Source: Flavobacterium psychrophilum (lineage in GTDB: Bacteria; Bacteroidota; Bacteroidia; Flavobacteriales; Flavobacteriaceae). Taken from it: DNA of 8,907 nt. The notes beneath the pieces were generated by a model that saw only the letters and a list, made by a program, of their open reading frames with translations, made no database searches and was not told the DNA's origin. Shown here in pieces: positions 1,377-8,592 of the stretch (positions are counted from its first letter, which is position 1; every line of letters starts with the position of its first letter). The DNA lies in the NCBI GenBank assembly GCA_945897545.1, contig CAMDGJ010000119.1, forward strand, positions 1 to 8,907. The letters are read 5' to 3'. The translations under genes were made by a program, and so were the position numbers.

Positions 1377-1415
1377 AACAAAATCATAAAAAATAGTATT
1401 TTTTGTTCATTCTGT

Positions 1416-1445
1416 TTGGATAATCAAAATTCATTTATATATTTG
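1416..1445 (+). promoter_or_regulatory. trp operon promoter, Bacteroidota type (TTG-N19-TATATTTG)
   Basis: TATATTTG at 1438-1445 is an exact match to the Bacteroidota -7 consensus TAnnTTTG. TTG at 1416-1418, within TTTG, lies 19 nt upstream, at the expected spacing for the -33 element. Transcription would start near 1450, about ten nucleotides before the leader peptide ATG. I see no operator-like palindrome over the promoter, which fits control by attenuation rather than by a TrpR-type repressor. Confidence 0.85.
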
Positions 1446-1460
1446 TGCCAAGAATTAAAT

Positions 1461-1517
1461 ATGAAAACAATTACAAATAATACTTGGTGGTGGAACAATT
1501 TACGTCAGTCGTCGTGA
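1461..1517 (+). CDS. trpL: trp operon leader peptide with three consecutive Trp codons
   Basis: ATG 1461 opens an 18-codon frame, MKTITNNTWWWNNLRQSS, ending at TGA 1515-1517. Three successive TGG codons lie at 1485-1493. It is the first start codon after the promoter and precedes an intrinsic terminator and trpE, exactly where a ribosome-sensing leader is expected. The start is preceded by an A-rich tract and there is no Shine-Dalgarno site, as for its neighbours. The late codons CGT CAG TCG TCG TGA are GC-rich against the surrounding style. They coincide with the bases that pair in the antiterminator, so RNA structure probably dictates their choice. The peptide itself is not expected to have a function; its translation is the sensor of charged tRNA-Trp. 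Confidence 0.9.
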   Translation: MKTITNNTWWWNNLRQSS

Positions 1518-1569
1518 ACAAAGCTCCTATAGTATAAAACTATAAATATAAAAGGCTTGTCATCACGAC
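1511..1569 (+). promoter_or_regulatory. trp attenuator antiterminator (mutually exclusive with the terminator)
   Basis: GTCGTGA (1511-1517, overlapping the leader stop codon) is perfectly complementary to TCACGAC (1563-1569). The pairing continues as ACAA (1518-1521) with TTGT (1557-1560), with CA at 1561-1562 bulged out, and GC (1523-1524) with GC (1555-1556). This helix uses both the terminator loop and parts of both terminator arms, so the two folds cannot coexist. A ribosome stalled on the Trp codons at 1485-1493 leaves 1511-1528 free and favours antitermination. One that reaches the stop at 1515 masks it and lets the terminator form. The pairing is seen in the sequence; the mechanism is the established logic of E. 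coli-type attenuation. Confidence 0.82.
1528..1544 (+). repeat. Small hairpin nested inside the antiterminator loop
   Basis: TATAGT (1528-1533) pairs perfectly with ACTATA (1539-1544) around an ATAAA loop. It lies in the linker between the two antiterminator strands and would draw them together, shortening the effective loop of the long-range helix. Functional meaning is inferred. Confidence 0.55.
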
Positions 1570-1583
1570 AAGCCTTTTTTTTT
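1551..1583 (+). terminator. trp attenuator terminator
   Basis: An 11-bp perfect stem (1551-1561 with 1567-1577) has the loop ATCAC and a T tract from 1575 to 1583. It stands 34 nt after the leader stop codon and 43 nt before the trpE ATG, so it controls entry into the structural genes. The loop bases are complementary to the end of the leader frame (see the antiterminator). Confidence 0.92.
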
Positions 1584-1626: not shown

Positions 1627-3027
1627 ATGAAAACATTTATTCTAAATACAAATTACAAGCAAATCCTTGCTGATACAATCACACCGGTGAGTGTTTACTT
1701 AAAAATACGGGATCAATTTCCTAATAGTTTGCTTTTGGAAAGTAGCGATTACCATGGTAACGACAACAGTTTTTCCTATATCTGTTGCAACCCGATAGCT
1801 TCTATAAAAATCGAAAACGAAACCATTTCAAAAATATATCCCGACGGAAGTGTTGAAAATATTTCAATCGATGCAAATACTGATATTCCGCAAATAATTC
1901 AAGAATTTTCAGGGCAATTCCAGTCTGAGAAAAATGATTTTAAATTCATTAATAACGGATTATTTGGCTATATTTCGTATGATGCTGTTCGTTATTTCGA
2001 AAAAGTAACTATCGCCAAAAAAGATGGAGAAACTACTATTCCCGATGTGTTTTACGCTGTTTACCAAAATATAATTGCCATCAACCATTTCAAAAATGAA
2101 GCTTATATTTTCTGCCACAGTATAGACGACAGAAACAACATTTCTGAAATTGAACAATTATTGCAGTCCAGAAACATAGCTTCATATAAATTCTCGAAAG
2201 AAGGCAAAGGTTTTTCTAACTTAACCGACGAAGAATTCAAGCACAATGTAGCTTTGGCCAAAAAACATTGTTACAGGGGAGATGTGTTCCAATTAGTATT
2301 ATCCAGAAGATTTACACAAGGTTTTAAAGGCGATGAATTCAATGTTTACAGAGCTTTGCGAAGCATTAACCCTTCTCCGTATTTGTTCTTTTTTGATTAT
2401 GGCGATTTCAAAATATTTGGTTCTTCACCCGAAGCTCAAATTATTGTAAAAGACCGTAAAGCCGAAATTCACCCCATCGCCGGAACTTTCAGACGAACAG
2501 GCGATGATGAAAAAGATGCCCTTTTAGCTAAAAAACTATCCGAAGACAAAAAAGAAAACAGCGAACACGTAATGCTTGTTGATCTAGCCCGAAACGATTT
2601 AAGCAGAAACGGTCACGAGGTTAAAGTAGAAAAATACCGCGAAGTACAATTTTTCTCCCATGTGATTCATTTAGTTTCCAAAGTAACGGGACATTTACAC
2701 GAAAAAGCCACAACGATGCAAGTCGTAGCCGACACTTTTCCAGCGGGAACATTAAGTGGCGCACCAAAACACAGAGCGATGCAATTGATAGAAGATTACG
2801 AAAAAACAAATCGTAATTTTTACGGAGGAGCAATAGGATTTATGGATTTCAAAGGCAACTTTAATCACGCTATTATGATTCGTACTTTTTTAAGTAAAAA
2901 CCATCAGTTACATTCTCAAGCAGGAGCTGGAATTGTAGCTGGCTCAGATGAAGAAAGCGAAATGCAGGAAGTATACAATAAATTATTGGCGTTGAATAAA
3001 GCGCTGGATTTGGCAGAAACAATATAA
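1627..3027 (+). CDS. trpE: Anthranilate synthase component I
   Basis: TrpE converts chorismate and ammonia, supplied by TrpG, to anthranilate and pyruvate, the committed step of tryptophan synthesis. From ATG 1627 it is 466 residues, in the normal size range. LLLESS (35-40) is the inhibitory tryptophan-binding segment, so feedback control is probably intact. The chorismate-binding domain shows SPEA (267-270), HPIAGT (282-287), SEHVMLVDLARND (312-324), GTLSGAPK (374-381) and GAGIVAGSDEESE (433-445). The alanine in PIAGT marks TrpE; the related PabB usually has lysine there. The frame is open 15 codons further upstream, to a TTG at 1582 inside the terminator T tract. That start is rejected because ATG 1627 has an A-rich leader and gives the canonical MKTFILNTNY start. 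It is the first structural gene behind the attenuator. Confidence 0.97.
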   Translation: MKTFILNTNYKQILADTITPVSVYLKIRDQFPNSLLLESSDYHGNDNSFSYICCNPIASIKIENETISKIYPDGSVENISIDANTDIPQIIQEFSGQFQSEKNDFKFINNGLFGYISYDAVRYFEKVTIAKKDGETTIPDVFYAVYQNIIAINHFKNEAYIFCHSIDDRNNISEIEQLLQSRNIASYKFSKEGKGFSNLTDEEFKHNVALAKKHCYRGDVFQLVLSRRFTQGFKGDEFNVYRALRSINPSPYLFFFDYGDFKIFGSSPEAQIIVKDRKAEIHPIAGTFRRTGDDEKDALLAKKLSEDKKENSEHVMLVDLARNDLSRNGHEVKVEKYREVQFFSHVIHLVSKVTGHLHEKATTMQVVADTFPAGTLSGAPKHRAMQLIEDYEKTNRNFYGGAIGFMDFKGNFNHAIMIRTFLSKNHQLHSQAGAGIVAGSDEESEMQEVYNKLLALNKALDLAETI

Positions 3028-3069: not shown

Positions 3070-3636
3070 ATGAAAAAAATACTAGTCATAGACAATTACG
3101 ATAGCTTCACTTACAACTTAGTGCATTATCTCGAGGATTTAGATTGCGAAGTTACTGTCTACAGAAACGATGAATTTGATATTGACGAAATTGCCCATTT
3201 CGATAAAATATTACTATCACCCGGACCAGGAATTCCTGATGAAGCGGGTTTGTTAAAAGCCGTAATTGCCAAATATGCTTCAACAAAAAGCATTCTGGGA
3301 GTTTGCCTTGGCCAACAAGCCATTGGAGAAGTCTTTGGCGGAACGCTTTCAAACTTAGACAAAGTCTATCACGGAGTTTCCTCAATGATAAAAACATCAG
3401 TTGATGATGAACTTTTATTCGAAGGATTAGGAAATGAATTTGAAGTAGGACGGTACCATTCGTGGGTGGTCGATGCTAATTTGCCTGATGTTCTAGAAGC
3501 AACCTCTTTCGACGAAAACGGACAACTAATGTCCTTGCGACATAAAACGTTTGATGTACGAGGTGTACAATTTCATCCTGAAAGTGTGTTGACACCAAAC
3601 GGAAAGAAAATTTTAGAAAACTGGCTAAAGAATTAA
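3070..3636 (+). CDS. trpG: Anthranilate synthase component II, glutamine amidotransferase
   Basis: TrpG hydrolyses glutamine and channels ammonia to TrpE. At 188 residues it has the standard length of a free-standing class I amidotransferase. The N-terminal LVIDNYDSFTYNLVHYL, the oxyanion-loop PGPG (51-54), the nucleophile Cys79 in GVCLGQQAIGE, and the His169/Glu171 pair in FHPES are all present, so the triad is complete. The close relative PabA shares these motifs and can be the same protein serving folate synthesis. Placement between trpE and trpD makes TrpG the better name, and a dual role is possible. ATG 3070 follows an A-rich tract and gives the canonical MKKILVIDNYDSF start. It lies 42 nt after trpE, across the 16-bp palindrome. 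Confidence 0.96.
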   Translation: MKKILVIDNYDSFTYNLVHYLEDLDCEVTVYRNDEFDIDEIAHFDKILLSPGPGIPDEAGLLKAVIAKYASTKSILGVCLGQQAIGEVFGGTLSNLDKVYHGVSSMIKTSVDDELLFEGLGNEFEVGRYHSWVVDANLPDVLEATSFDENGQLMSLRHKTFDVRGVQFHPESVLTPNGKKILENWLKN

Positions 3637-3654
3637 TGCAATACCTAGAAAAAA

Positions 3655-3692
3655 ATCCGTAAATATCAGTTAATAATCCGCGTCATCCGCGT
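3655..3692. repeat. Tandem ATCCGCGT repeat in the trpG-trpD spacer
   Basis: ATCCGCGT occurs at 3676-3683 and again at 3685-3692, a 9-nt period with one C between copies. A degenerate third unit, ATCCGT, lies at 3655-3660. The stretch takes up most of the 64-nt gap and reaches to within 8 nt of the trpD start, displacing the usual A-rich translation leader. Short GC-rich direct repeats like this look like a dispersed intergenic element, but copy number elsewhere cannot be seen here. Confidence 0.6.
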
Positions 3693-3700
3693 TCCATTTT

Positions 3701-4693
3701 ATGAAAACAATATTAAACAAGCTCATCAATCACGAAATGCTTTCGAAAGAAGAAGCTAAAAACGTCTTGGTCAATATTTCTAACGGAAGTTATAATCCAA
3801 GCCAAATTGCTTCATTCCTTACGGTTTATATGATGAGAAGTGTCAGTATCGAGGAACTTTCAGGCTTTCGAGAAGCCTTATTGGAACTCTGTATTCGAGT
3901 AGATTTATCGGCATACAATACCATCGATTTGTGCGGAACAGGTGGCGATGGAAAAGATACTTTCAATATATCAACTTTGGCTTCTTTTGTAGCAGCTGGA
4001 GCAGGAATTAAAGTTGCCAAACATGGTAATTACGGCGTTTCTTCGATTTCGGGTTCAAGCAATGTGATGGAAAAATTAGGAGTGAAATTCAGCAATGACA
4101 CTGATTTCTTGGACAAATGTATCGACCAAGCAGGAATTTGCATTCTACATGCGCCCTTGTTTCACCCAGCAATGAAAAATGTGGGACCTATTCGTTCAGC
4201 ATTAGGAGTAAAAACCTTCTTCAATATGTTAGGTCCAATGGTTAATCCTTCGTTTCCAAAAAACCAATTGGTGGGAGTTTTCAATTTGGAACTGGCAAGA
4301 ATGTATGGGTATTTATACCAAAATACTGATAGAAATTTTACGATATTACATTCATTGGATGGCTATGACGAAATTTCATTAACTTGCCCAACTAAATATA
4401 TTTCCAATACGCGAGAAGGTGTTTTAAATCCAAGTGATTTTGGCATTCGACAACTGTCACAAAGCGAAATTGAAGGAGGGAAAACCATCGAAGAATCAGC
4501 GCAAATGTTTGCCAATATTATTTCTGGAAAAGGGACTGAAGCTCAAAATAACGTGGTTTGTGCCAATGCTGCAATGGCAATTTCGACAGTGAACGGTGGT
4601 TCGCCATTAGAAGCATTTCAATTGGCAAAAGAAAGTTTATTGTCAGGGAAAGGATTAGCATCATTGAACAAATTACAAGAATTAAGTAAATAA
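3701..4693 (+). CDS. trpD: Anthranilate phosphoribosyltransferase
   Basis: TrpD transfers the phosphoribosyl group of PRPP to anthranilate, giving N-(5-phosphoribosyl)anthranilate. The 330-residue product has the usual length of a monofunctional enzyme, not fused to TrpG. An N-terminal helical domain leads into the PRPP-binding DLCGTGGDGKDTFNIST (GTGGD 79-83, NIST 89-92). KHGNYGVSS (107-115) and the anthranilate-site segment RSALGVKTFFNMLGPMVNP (165-183) follow. The family more often has KHGNR; tyrosine at 111 is a variation, not a sign of damage. The ATG is preceded by TTCCATTTT from the repeat-like spacer instead of an A-rich tract, so translation initiation may be weaker than in its neighbours or coupled to trpG. 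It ends 5 nt before trpC, suggesting tight translational coupling. Confidence 0.97.
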   Translation: MKTILNKLINHEMLSKEEAKNVLVNISNGSYNPSQIASFLTVYMMRSVSIEELSGFREALLELCIRVDLSAYNTIDLCGTGGDGKDTFNISTLASFVAAGAGIKVAKHGNYGVSSISGSSNVMEKLGVKFSNDTDFLDKCIDQAGICILHAPLFHPAMKNVGPIRSALGVKTFFNMLGPMVNPSFPKNQLVGVFNLELARMYGYLYQNTDRNFTILHSLDGYDEISLTCPTKYISNTREGVLNPSDFGIRQLSQSEIEGGKTIEESAQMFANIISGKGTEAQNNVVCANAAMAISTVNGGSPLEAFQLAKESLLSGKGLASLNKLQELSK

Positions 4694-4698
4694 CGCAA

Positions 4699-5505
4699 AT
4701 GAATATTTTAGATAGAATAATAATCGACAAACGAAGAGAAGTCATTCTCAAGAAATCAATCATTCCTGTTTCGCAATTGGAAGCTTCGGTTTTCTTTGAA
4801 AAAAAGACGATTTCTTTGAGTCAAAATTTGCAACACAGCAACTCTGGGATCATTGCTGAACACAAACGTCGTTCGCCTTCAAAAGCCGAAATCAACTATG
4901 GTTTCACTGTGGAAGAAGTAGCAAAAGGGTACGAAAATGCAGGTGCTTGCGGAATTTCAGTTCTCACCGATGGAAAATATTTTGGTGGTTCATTAGACGA
5001 TTTGCTTTTGGCTAGAGCCTCAGTGAATATTCCGTTGTTGCGAAAAGAATTCATTGTAGACGAATACCAAATATTGGAAGCCAAAGCCTATGGAGCCGAT
5101 TTAATTTTACTCATCGCAGCCGTTTTAAGTCGGGAGGAAATTAAATCCTTGTCGGAATTTGCTAAAAGTTTAGGATTAGAAGTTTTGTTAGAAGTGCATA
5201 ATTTGGAAGAATTGGAGAAATCAATAATGCCAACATTGGATATGATTGGTGTAAATAACAGAAACCTAAAAACATTTGAAGTAAGTTTGGATTTTAGCAA
5301 GCAATTGGCAGACCATATTCCAAATGATTTCGTGAAAATATCCGAAAGCGGTATTTCATCAATAGAAGCCATCAACGAACTGAAACCCTACGGTTACAAA
5401 GGGTTCCTGATTGGAGAAAATTTTATGAAAACGGACGATGCCGGAAGAGCTGCAACGGAATTTATTAGCCCCCTAGCCCCCAAAGGGGGAATTAGCAACT
5501 TGTAA
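4699..5505 (+). CDS. trpC: Indole-3-glycerol-phosphate synthase
   Basis: TrpC decarboxylates and cyclises carboxyphenylamino-deoxyribulose phosphate to indole-3-glycerol phosphate. It is a 268-residue monofunctional (beta/alpha)8 enzyme. Catalytic and phosphate-binding motifs are complete: AEHKRRSPSK (53-62, with Glu54, Lys56 and Ser61), LRKEF (114-118, Lys116), LLEVHN (163-168, Glu165), VNNRNL (185-190, Asn187) and SESGI (215-219, Glu216). FLIGENFM forms the last phosphate site. The C-terminal tail after about residue 255 (SPLAPKGGISNL) is not TrpC-like. It is the translation of a G/C-run repeat inserted at the gene's end, and the fold should tolerate it because all active-site elements come earlier. 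The gene starts 5 nt after trpD and ends 14 nt before the ATG that opens the trpF frame. Confidence 0.97.
   Translation: MNILDRIIIDKRREVILKKSIIPVSQLEASVFFEKKTISLSQNLQHSNSGIIAEHKRRSPSKAEINYGFTVEEVAKGYENAGACGISVLTDGKYFGGSLDDLLLARASVNIPLLRKEFIVDEYQILEAKAYGADLILLIAAVLSREEIKSLSEFAKSLGLEVLLEVHNLEELEKSIMPTLDMIGVNNRNLKTFEVSLDFSKQLADHIPNDFVKISESGISSIEAINELKPYGYKGFLIGENFMKTDDAGRAATEFISPLAPKGGISNL
5467..5492 (+). repeat. G/C-run repeat, copy 1 (inside the 3' end of trpC)
   Basis: The unit reads AGCCCCCTAGCCCCC, then AAA, then GGGGG, with CCCCC (5477-5481) and GGGGG (5485-5489) able to form a small hairpin. It is sharply different in base composition from the surrounding AT-rich genes. It encodes SPLAPKGG at the TrpC C-terminus. 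A near-identical copy lies inverted at 5583-5608 (21 of 23 core positions match). Elements of this appearance occur in Bacteroidota genomes as dispersed palindromic repeats; that link is from memory. Confidence 0.8.
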
Positions 5506-5519
5506 ATATAAATAGTAAT

Positions 5520-6224
5520 ATGCAGTCGACTTCAACAAAAGCATCCGACAATTCAAACTCGCAAACAACATCCCGCCAAGAACTCCCCCTTCGGGGGCTG
5601 GGGGGCTTGAAAATCTGTGGAATGAAATACCCCGAAAACATACTCGAAGTAGGCTCGCTCCTACCCGATTATATGGGCTTTATATTCTGGGAGAAATCAG
5701 CACGTTATTTTGACGGAGAAATACCTAATTTACCAGAATCAATCAAAAAAGTAGGTGTGTTTGTCAATGCCAGTTCATCCGAAATTCTAGATAAAATTAA
5801 AAAGTACGATTTGCAAGCTGTTCAATTACACGGGAATGAATCGGTCGAATTTTGTGCAACATTAAAAAATAGTGTACCAAACCTGATAGAAATCATAAAA
5901 GTATTTTCAATTTTAGATACCTTTGACTTTGAAGAACTAAAACCATTCGAAAGTGTATGCGATTTCTATCTTTTTGACACCAAAGGAAAGTTACCCGGCG
6001 GAAACGGAACCGCTTTCGATTGGAAAGTTTTAGAAAGTTACCCCTCAACGAAGCACTTTTTCCTGAGCGGGGGAATAGGAATTGAGGAAATAGAAGCCAT
6101 AAATGAAATTTTGAAAACTAATCTACCGCTTTATGCCATTGACGTAAACAGTAAATTTGAAATCGAACCTGGATTAAAAAATATAAAAACATTATCTAGT
6201 TTTAAGGATAACTTGAAGCTTTAA
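5520..6224 (+). CDS. trpF: Phosphoribosylanthranilate isomerase, with a repeat-derived N-terminal extension
   Basis: TrpF performs the Amadori isomerisation of phosphoribosylanthranilate, between the TrpD and TrpC steps. The catalytic cysteine is Cys33 in LKICGM and the catalytic aspartate is probably Asp153 in [16 protein letters not shown] (160-168), LSGGIG (182-187) and IDVNSKFE (207-214) bind phosphate and close the barrel. Normal TrpF begins within a few residues of KICGM. Here the frame opens 30 codons earlier at ATG 5520 with a Ser/Thr/Asn-rich stretch and then ELPLRGLGG, the translation of the G/C-run repeat. The only other in-frame option is TTG 5607, which would give the ordinary length of about 205 residues. 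The next ATG, 5622, would remove the catalytic cysteine and is excluded. Identity is certain; the start codon is not. Confidence 0.93.
5583..5608 (-). repeat. G/C-run repeat, copy 2 (inverted, over the trpF start)
   Basis: CTCCCCCTTCGGGGG followed by CTGGGGGGCTT is the reverse complement of copy 1 at 5467-5492, with only two differences in the 23-base core. CCCCC (5585-5589) and GGGGG (5593-5597) form a local hairpin, and the whole unit can pair with copy 1 to make a large stem enclosing 5490-5584. It ends right at the codon before KICGM of TrpF, where the ancestral start codon should have been. Confidence 0.8.
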
Positions 6225-6243
6225 ATTTAATACTTTAAACAAA

Positions 6244-7425
6244 ATGAGTTACAACGTCAACGAAAAAGGCTATTACGGAGAATTTGGAGGAGCTTATATT
6301 CCTGAAATGTTATATCCAAATGTAGAGGAATTACGCAAACAATATCTAAAAGTTACAGCAGAACCTGAATTCCAAGAAGAATTTGATGCACTCTTGAAAG
6401 ACTATGTAGGTCGTCCTACTCCTCTTTATTTTGCAACCCGATTATCTGCAAAATACAATACAAAAGTCTACCTCAAACGAGAAGATTTATGTCATACAGG
6501 TGCACATAAAATCAACAATACTATTGGACAAATTTTGCTTGCCAAACGTTTGGGTAAAACCAGAATCATAGCCGAAACTGGCGCAGGTCAACACGGTGTT
6601 GCCACTGCTACTGTTTGCGCCTTGATGGGATTGCAGTGCATTGTATATATGGGTGAAGTTGATATCAAGCGTCAAGCACCAAATGTAGCTAGAATGAAAA
6701 TGTTGGGAGCCGAAGTTCGTCCTGCACTTTCGGGTTCCCGAACACTGAAAGATGCTACAAATGAAGCTATTCGTGATTGGATAAACAATCCAATAGACAC
6801 CTATTACATTATTGGTTCAGTAGTTGGACCACATCCTTATCCTGATATGGTGGCACGTTTCCAAAGTGTCATTTCTAAAGAAATTAAATGGCAATTATTG
6901 GAAAAAGAAGGTCGTGAAAATCCTGATTATGTGATTGCTTGTGTTGGTGGCGGAAGTAATGCTGCTGGAACCTACTATCATTTTTTAGAAGATGAAAACG
7001 TAAATATTATCGCCGTTGAAGCCGCAGGTTTAGGAGTAGATTCTGGCGAAAGTGCCGCAACTTCAGCTTTGGGAAAGGTAGGAGTCATTCACGGAAGCAA
7101 AACCCTGTTGATGCAATCACCTGACGGACAGATTACCGAGCCGTATTCTATTTCTGCTGGATTGGATTATCCAGGTGTTGGCCCTATGCACGCCAATTTA
7201 TTTACTACTGGAAGAGCAGAATTTATATCGGTTACTGATGAAGATGCGATGCAGTGGGGACTGAAATTATCGCAAATGGAAGGATTGATTCCAGCAATCG
7301 AAACCGCACACGCCTTCGCAGTATTAGACGTGAAAAAATTCAAACCTACGGATATTGTTGTGATTAATTTATCTGGACGTGGCGACAAAGATTTGAATAC
7401 TTATATTGATTATTTTAAATTATAA
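6244..7425 (+). CDS. trpB: Tryptophan synthase beta chain
   Basis: TrpB condenses indole with L-serine using pyridoxal phosphate, in the alpha2beta2 complex with TrpA. The 393-residue protein has the standard TrpB1 length and start ([14 protein letters not shown]). The cofactor lysine is Lys89 in HTGAHKINN, the catalytic glutamate Glu111 in AETGAGQHG, the PLP phosphate loop GGGSNA at 235-240, and the C-terminal LSGRGDKD carries the serine that contacts the pyridine nitrogen. GRPTPLY and the long conserved block around 140-165 also fit. It starts 19 nt after trpF behind an A-rich tract. Unusually for a trpB, it is separated from trpA by another gene, although the two subunits form one enzyme. 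Confidence 0.98.
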
Positions 7426-7449
7426 TTGAACCTTACAAAATTGAATGCT

Positions 7450-7770
7450 ATGATAAAATTATTCACCTACGGAACATTGCAACAAACTGACGTACAAGAA
7501 GAGCTTTTTGGTCGCAGATTAGTTGGAACTCCAGAAATAATAGTTGGATATGCGTTACAAGAAATTCAAATTGAAGAAGAATTTGGAATTGTAGCCTATG
7601 AAATTCTCGTGGAAACTGGTAATCCAAAAGATACAATTAATGGAATAGTATACGATGTAACACAAAAAGAACTTTATCAAGCAGATCTTTACGAGGGAAT
7701 GAATTACAAACGTGTTGAAGTACACTTGCAATCAGACCAAAAAGTTTGGGCTTACAGTGCAACAAGATAA
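7450..7770 (+). CDS. Gamma-glutamylcyclotransferase-like (AIG2/GGCT fold) protein inside the trp operon
   Basis: From ATG 7450 the product is 106 residues, typical for the compact GGCT-like domain. It has the N-terminal substrate loop LFTYGTLQ (YGTL 7-10), the pattern GIVYDV (65-70), and ADLYEGMNYKRVEV (78-91), whose Glu82 sits where the family's catalytic glutamate is expected. Related proteins release 5-oxoproline from gamma-glutamyl compounds, but substrates differ widely and this one's is unknown. The frame is open back to TTG 7426, directly after the trpB stop; ATG 7450 is preferred because MIKLFTYGTL is the canonical start. It lies 24 nt after trpB and 57 nt before trpA on the same strand, with no terminator visible between them, so it should be co-transcribed. 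It has no known role in tryptophan synthesis. Confidence 0.88.
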   Translation: MIKLFTYGTLQQTDVQEELFGRRLVGTPEIIVGYALQEIQIEEEFGIVAYEILVETGNPKDTINGIVYDVTQKELYQADLYEGMNYKRVEVHLQSDQKVWAYSATR

Positions 7771-7827
7771 GCTATTATTAAATCAAACCTCTAATTGTAC
7801 AAGATATTATGGGTAAATAAAATAAAT

Positions 7828-8592
7828 ATGAATCGAATAAATATAAAATTACAAGAAAATAAAAAAATACTTTCCATCTATTTTTCTGCAGGATATCCCA
7901 GTTTAACTGATACTGTGCAAATCATTCAGGACTTGGAAAAAAACGGTGTCGATATGATAGAAATCGGATTGCCGTTTAGTGATCCATTAGCCGATGGACC
8001 CACGATTCAAGAAAGTTCAACCCAAGCTTTACACAACGGAATGACAACTCAAGTTTTGTTTGATCAACTAAAAGACATCAGGAAAACCGTTTCAATTCCG
8101 CTGGTAATTATGGGGTATTTCAATCCAATGTTGCAATATGGCATAGAAAATTTCTGCATGGAATGTGCTAAAATTGGCATCGATGGCTTGATCATTCCCG
8201 ATCTTCCAGTTGACGTTTACGCTGATGAATACAAAGTAACTTTCGAGAAATACGGACTCAAAAATATATTTCTGATTACCCCACAAACTTCGGACGAACG
8301 CATTCGTTTTATAGATAGCGTTTCGGATGGATTTATTTATATGGTGAGTTCAGCTAGTGTAACTGGTTCGCAATCTGGATTTGGAAGCATTCAAGAAAAC
8401 TATTTCAAACGTATTTCTGAAATGAACCTGAACAACCATCAAATCATTGGTTTTGGAATCAGCAATGCAGCAACTTTTAATCAAGCCACGGAATTTGCAA
8501 AAGGTGCGATTATTGGTAGTGCTTTCATCAAAAATCTGACGGAAAATGGGGTTGGCAGTATTGAAGAGTTTACAAAAGCGATTCGATTATAA
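7828..8592 (+). CDS. trpA: Tryptophan synthase alpha chain
   Basis: TrpA cleaves indole-3-glycerol phosphate to indole and glyceraldehyde 3-phosphate, and passes indole through a tunnel to TrpB. From ATG 7828 the protein has 254 residues, slightly shorter than the E. coli enzyme mainly at the N-terminus. Catalytic Glu45 in MIEIGLPFSDP and Asp56 in LADGPTIQ correspond to Glu49 and Asp60 of E. coli. IIPDLPV, ITPQTS, VSSASVTG (the family usually has SRAGVTG) and GFGIS complete the barrel. The frame continues upstream to TTG 7795, but that adds 11 residues unlike the family, while ATG 7828 follows AATAAAATAAAT, matching the A-rich leaders of this operon. It is the last gene of the operon, 21 nt before a strong terminator. 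Confidence 0.97.
   Translation: MNRINIKLQENKKILSIYFSAGYPSLTDTVQIIQDLEKNGVDMIEIGLPFSDPLADGPTIQESSTQALHNGMTTQVLFDQLKDIRKTVSIPLVIMGYFNPMLQYGIENFCMECAKIGIDGLIIPDLPVDVYADEYKVTFEKYGLKNIFLITPQTSDERIRFIDSVSDGFIYMVSSASVTGSQSGFGSIQENYFKRISEMNLNNHQIIGFGISNAATFNQATEFAKGAIIGSAFIKNLTENGVGSIEEFTKAIRL

Follow-up and report, generated by a model that had tools for sequence, protein, structure and literature searches.

The trp operon and the region upstream of trpE

The window, by which we mean the whole 8,907-nucleotide stretch of Flavobacterium psychrophilum DNA that was analysed, carries a complete trp operon on its forward strand, ahead of which lie a promoter, a short Trp-rich leader ORF and an intrinsic terminator (Table 1). 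A gamma-glutamylcyclotransferase-like ORF (GGACT domain, PF06094) occupies 7450-7770, between trpB and trpA. On the other side of the promoter, an inverted repeat of 11 bp with eight T residues after it (1344-1377, read by eye) is found behind a YceI-domain gene, and is likely a terminator that insulates this gene from the trp promoter. Of the three short matches in a plasmid search, two were trpE-like.

Table 1. Positions in the window of the trp genes and of the features that precede them.
Feature	Positions	Strand	Remarks
Possible -33 element, TTTG	1415..1418	+	Read by eye; 19 nt upstream of the -7 box
-7 promoter box, TATATTTG (TAnnTTTG)	1438..1445	+	Direct reading; predicted transcription start 1450 or 1451
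Rfam RF01692 Bacteroid-trp match	1443..1561	+	Whole model 1-131; 66.4 bits, gathering 49
Leader ORF, MKTITNNTWWWNNLRQSS	1461..1517	+	ATG 1461, 18 codons, TGA 1515-1517
Trp codons 9-11 (TGG TGG TGG), predicted stall site	1485..1493	+	Direct reading
Possible protector hairpin, 5' strand	1499..1504	+	Partner 1513-1518; seen in folds
Antiterminator 5' strand, GTCGTGA	1511..1517	+	Overlaps the leader stop codon
Intrinsic terminator	1550..1583	+	Arms 1550-1561 and 1567-1578, loop 1562-1566, T run 1575-1583
Antiterminator 3' strand, TCACGAC	1563..1569	+	Exact complement of 1511-1517
trpE (anthranilate synthase component I)	1627..3027	+	Pfam PF00425, PF04715
trpG, trpD, trpC, trpF, trpB, GGACT-domain ORF, trpA	3070..8592	+	ORFs and Pfam

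The initial annotation had placed all parts of an attenuator within 1438-1583, and direct reading confirmed the promoter box, the 18-codon leader and the WWW run at codons 9-11. The complementarity that it had noted between the strand over the leader stop codon and the loop and arm of the terminator proved to be exact, with the antiterminator 3' strand made up of four terminator-loop bases and the initial three bases of the 3' arm. Folding of 1451-1583 gives -27.7 kcal/mol (z -3.32), which none of 200 shuffles equalled, and a duplex as good as that between the window's post-Trp segment and its own terminator arises in 0.2% of 1000 shuffles (p 0.002). RF01692 is the only Rfam family to reach gathering in the window; all remaining matches, including any to the T-box covariance model, fall below it. 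The location of the RF01692 match agrees with that of the family, with trpE-trpA downstream and relatives titled Flavobacterium.

Conservation of the leader and terminator

The initial annotation had suggested looking for conserved Trp-codon runs upstream of trpE in related genomes, and such runs are indeed found there. Close relatives were taken as the best 80 of 587 by trpE match in one scan (trpE identity 86-92%); 75 of these best 80 are titled Flavobacterium, and a WWW leader is present at all 80 loci. Together with the window they form the 81 Flavobacterium-type rows referred to below. For the host family (Flavobacteriaceae), trpE was matched in 109 of 120 sampled genomes, and 107 upstreams were retained once the partial hits G460 and G473 had been left out. 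A WW leader and a terminator occur together in 101 of these 107 upstreams, a WW leader only in three, a terminator only in one and neither in two, whereas the combination appears in none of 1,070 shuffled host-family upstreams. The Trp run is WWW in 89 of the 101 leaders and WW in 12. A sample of the host class (Bacteroidia) gave a trpE match in 51 of 159 genomes and hence 52 upstreams, as one genome had two hits; here 33 have leader and terminator, 11 a terminator only, one a WW leader only and seven neither.

By the criteria used, the full set is missing from 6/107 host-family and 19/52 host-class upstreams, some of which are cut by a contig end (L188 in the host family; L116, L122 and L126 in the host class, where L108-L110 are Flavobacterium-like) or have another first gene. 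In three genomes scored as misses (G108, G074 and G140; rows L082, L086 and L097, and L174-L176), RF01692 matches lie ~1.25-1.3 kb upstream of trpE, which indicates that a different gene is probably first in the operon. For the terminator itself, 99.6% of cells are paired in the host-family alignment, with a double change at 8/8 pairs.

Promoter spacing and the predicted 5' UTR

In F. johnsoniae, 4 or 5 nt separate the -7 box from the transcription start at probable promoters, and the -33 element is weak (PMC6847099); in F. psychrophilum, the promoter box is reported at -12 to -5 (PMC9723704). These published offsets lead us to predict a start at 1450 or 1451 in the window and a 5' UTR of 10-11 nt, in keeping with the roughly ten nucleotides first proposed. 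Transcripts with leaders longer than 10 nt make up 87% in F. johnsoniae (PMC6847099), and the leaderless share published for F. psychrophilum is 5.5% (PMC9723704).

Proximity of promoter and start codon recurs among the trp leaders. An exact TAnnTTTG box lies at most 60 nt from an in-frame ATG in 97 of the 101 host-family leaders, and the median TTTG-to-ATG spacing in these 97 is 11 nt, compared with 19 nt at control promoters. Spacings of 14 nt or less are found in 62/97 leaders vs 10/51 control promoters (p 3e-7), and spacings of 4-5 nt in 26/97 vs 6/51 (Fisher p 0.037), the latter 26 corresponding to predicted transcripts that begin at the ATG. The control behind these figures is small (202 ORFs from 20 stretches, 51 with a box, starts being the first or next in-frame ATGs), and the nearest box was counted for control promoters whereas the last box ahead of the Trp codons was taken for leaders. 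The trp leaders fall into one sharp group at 4-5 nt and one longer group. The trend toward short spacing is not uniform, because Flavobacterium-type rows split into 13/81 at 4 nt and 68/81 at 15-19 nt, the window being at 15 nt. The closeness of promoter to start codon hints that fast ribosome loading may be under selection in trp leaders.

Comparative evidence for the antiterminator pairing

The antiterminator 5' strand GTCGTGA is present in 81/81 Flavobacterium-type rows (the window and the best 80 of 587) and the 3' strand TCACGAC in 77/81 of the same rows; against the pairing, the remaining 4/81 differ by one base in the loop, which costs one antiterminator pair. Within the host family, 87.2% of antiterminator cells pair, compared with 85.9% in shuffles (0/300 reach the observed value), and there are nine double-change cells at 4/7 pairs. 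The excess in this column test is slight because the antiterminator core hardly varies in the family.

When the best duplex that the post-Trp segment can form with the terminator is compared with dinucleotide shuffles of the same row, it is the better one at p<=0.05 in 72/101 host-family and 16/32 host-class rows (L108 omitted from the latter set), and an exact complement of at least 6 nt occurs in 89/101 host-family rows vs 293/2020 shuffled ones. In 43 divergent rows, namely 30 host-class rows (L108-L111 omitted) and 13 divergent host-family rows picked by eye, the segment prefers its own terminator by -3.76 kcal/mol relative to row and column expectation, a value reached in 0/20,000 permutations that, like all those given here, ignore kinship among rows. 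This preference is located in the initial 36 nt past the last Trp codon (-3.94, 0/20,000), and in the same 43 rows it is absent from the pre-Trp stretch (+0.22), the remaining segment (+0.70) and the post-terminator stretch (-0.04). The 30 host-class rows alone give -3.65 for the initial 36 nt (0/20,000 permutations), and all 101 host-family rows give -0.83 (0/20,000). In distant rows such as L112 and L178, the UCGUGA string is replaced, for example by GAACAGC opposite GCUGUUC. In the host-class and divergent host-family rows, antiterminator and terminator thus exclude each other and co-vary, and the co-variation of the 1511-1517 and 1563-1569 regions that the initial annotation had proposed to look for is seen across species. 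A longer pairing did not hold up: an antiterminator extension between 1518-1525 and 1554-1560 was 57.6% and 64.4% paired, with little or no excess over shuffles, and was rejected.

The relation of this strand to the reading frame is also informative. A UCGUGA-like string occurs in 90/101 host-family leaders, and its TGA is the stop codon in 42 of them, lies at -5 in another frame (as in TTC GTG AAC TAA) in 25, at -4 or -3 in two, and past the stop (+6 to +16) in 21. Because the string is kept across reading frames while remaining near the leader stop, selection acts on the RNA and not on the end of the peptide. At all these positions the string would be covered by, or lie against, a ribosome that has reached the stop codon.

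Folding along the transcript

Equilibrium folding was followed as the 3' end advanced. With a ribosome edge at 1505, as in the stalled state, the antiterminator is favoured at 3' ends 1567-1574 (probability ~0.6), and the terminator reaches 0.51 at 1575 and 0.96 at 1577. Moving the edge to 1528 abolishes the antiterminator, and the terminator is at 1.0 by 1574. RNA that is not being translated forms the protector hairpin at an early stage (0.97 at 3' end 1560), the antiterminator is favoured at 1568-1573 (0.41-0.75), and from 1574 the terminator and protector win. Once the transcript reaches its full length, equilibrium folding yields the terminator even if nothing covers the antiterminator strand, so that read-through would need to be settled while the 3' end crosses ~1567-1574. 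Likewise, low read-through in the absence of translation rests on kinetics, since the untranslated RNA favours the antiterminator at 1568-1573.

The initial annotation had held that the geometry predicts the correct outcome in both ribosome states. The two edges do differ in the folds as claimed, and the initial interpretation is supported, its comparative test having been passed; the qualification is that the two states depend on kinetics, as at full length the terminator prevails even when the ribosome is stalled. The equilibrium folds therefore allow, without proving, a kinetic choice of read-through upon stalling.

The protector hairpin is a less certain component. Its cells are 61.2% paired vs 55.7% in letter shuffles (0/300 reach this), and one of six slid controls is equal (0.61); in a fold test it passes p<=0.05 in 29/86 host-family rows and only 1/81 Flavobacterium-type rows. 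We retain it as a putative element, given that the folds show it and the comparative tests are mixed.

Proposed mechanism and alternative explanations

Sequence and comparison establish the leader ORF and the terminator, the complementarity of the stop strand to the terminator, and the class-wide co-evolution of both regions. Based on the 18-codon WWW leader and the two mutually exclusive pairings that precede the full trp operon, we propose that the region is a ribosome-mediated transcription attenuator, a prediction that we regard as highly probable. A ribosome would load onto a 5' UTR of only 10-11 nt, and would do so without a Shine-Dalgarno sequence. When charged tRNA-Trp is ample, the ribosome would reach the stop codon and cover 1511-1517, and the terminator would form. 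When Trp is scarce, the ribosome is expected to stall at codons 9-11 with its leading edge at ~1497-1504, as reckoned from the usual ribosome footprint. This would leave 1511-1517 free to pair with 1563-1569 once these emerge, and the resulting antiterminator would hold the terminator open during passage of the polymerase over the T run, permitting transcription into trpE-trpA. If the leader is not translated at all, the local hairpin 1499-1504/1513-1518 may mask 1511-1517 and lead to termination.

An alternative is that the main switch is the hairpin of the RF01692 model, in which the Trp-codon region (~1480-1490) pairs with CCUAUAGUAU (1526-1535), the terminator being a mere backstop; a stalled ribosome could, for example, open this hairpin and so alter RNA stability or trpE translation. 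The hairpin is the annotated structure of the model and also belongs to the minimum-energy fold of 1451-1583, and in 30/81 Flavobacterium-type and 22/101 host-family rows it outperforms shuffles at p<=0.05. It does so in only 4/32 host-class rows, however, where the antiterminator signal is strong, and many of its pairs are broken in the alignment of the window to the model. Its weakness outside Flavobacterium led us to reject the hairpin as the main switch, and we consider this explanation improbable.

It could also be that the terminator works as a constant brake, from which a short stable RNA results, with the leader translated to no effect on read-through. Such a brake would accord with the terminator being the strongest structure, which prevails at full length regardless of the leader, but it leaves both the conserved Trp run and the co-evolution of stop strand and terminator unexplained; we rate it somewhat less probable than the hairpin switch. 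Least probable of all is a small functional Trp-rich peptide that works in trans: NTWWW and NLRQ-type residues do recur in Flavobacterium rows, but across the host family neither the frame of the peptide end around UCGUGA nor the position of the stop is constant, the N-terminal part and the length vary, and the codons past the Trp run overlap an RNA strand that is under pairing selection.

A possible wider pattern in amino-acid operons

Leaders of similar design precede other biosynthetic genes. Among 31 sampled host-family genomes, a His-run leader and a terminator were found in 22 of 25 hisG upstreams (L286-L310). PDT-domain (pheA-type) genes gave 29 upstreams (L311-L339), of which 17 have a Phe-run leader and a terminator, one of the 17 being doubtful (L337). 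In the initial 36 nt, the own-terminator preference is -0.79 for the his leaders (329/20,000 permutations equal) and -1.77 for the phe leaders (1/20,000 equal).

It is conceivable that Bacteroidia follow common rules of attenuation on mRNAs that are nearly leaderless and lack Shine-Dalgarno sites: the leader peptide begins at, or a few bases from, the first base of the transcript and contains a run of codons for the end product (Trp, His or Phe), and a freely rewritten strand near the stop pairs with the terminator; we think this generalization about as apt to prove wrong as right. If only a frame-independent pairing and a place near the stop are selected, sequence models such as RF01692 would be expected to miss members outside the host family.

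What these data offer is comparative evidence, beyond resemblance, for classical leader-peptide attenuation in a phylum whose sigma factor is divergent and whose translation does not start from Shine-Dalgarno sites, and they name the exact pairing 1511-1517/1563-1569 as a testable target. The antiterminator rule catches trp leaders that RF01692 misses, and would thus allow better annotation of amino-acid operons in Bacteroidota.

Relation to the known family and to other attenuators

RF01692 was described as a probable cis-regulatory RNA by Weinberg et al. (2010; PMC2864571). The whole model is matched in the window, and the family is described as Trp-rich leaders before trp genes in Bacteroidetes, as is the case here. 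The model ends within the 5' arm of the terminator; because its alignment stops at GGCUUGUC, the terminator stem and the antiterminator pairing that the window has besides lie outside it. The model recovers 14/20 host-family trp leaders and 0/20 host-class leaders, the 40 having been chosen from rows with leader and terminator, of which some in the host class are without a significant duplex (e.g. L169). In a scan of 395 host-class genomes under strict filters, to be read as no census, 27 had a match and 18 were over the cut-off.

For F. psychrophilum, a Bacteroid-Trp element before the trp operon has been reported and likened to the E. coli mechanism (PMC6414381), and structured 5' elements without Rfam hits have been described before pheA and hisG (PMC9723704). 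As far as these accounts describe them, the element and the proposed mechanism are the same as ours, and the present work examines the antiterminator pairing and its co-variation. In B. thetaiotaomicron, long 5' UTRs with short ORFs that recall attenuation leaders have been noted (PMC7366714), and PMC4833913 cites a comparative study of attenuation by Lopatovskaya et al. (2010).

We found no bench test of attenuation in Bacteroidota in the open-licence papers searched. To this extent, the statement in the initial annotation that no experimentally characterised case was known stands for direct tests of the mechanism; it needs tempering in that the leader belongs to a known Rfam family, one already discussed for F. 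psychrophilum. The window very probably holds a member of a known family that acts by a textbook mechanism, and what is newly added is a tested antiterminator, its frame independence and the predicted short 5' UTRs.

The E. coli trp attenuator combines a Trp-codon leader with mutually exclusive antiterminator and terminator pairings, and a stalled ribosome leads to read-through. The switch predicted for the window shares this logic: the Trp-codon leader, the exclusive pairings, and read-through that would follow from stalling. Unlike in E. coli trp, its antiterminator strand sits directly on the leader stop codon and pairs with the loop and 3' arm of the terminator. Its surroundings differ as well, with a promoter of the TAnnTTTG type, a predicted 5' UTR of 10-11 nt and no Shine-Dalgarno sequence.
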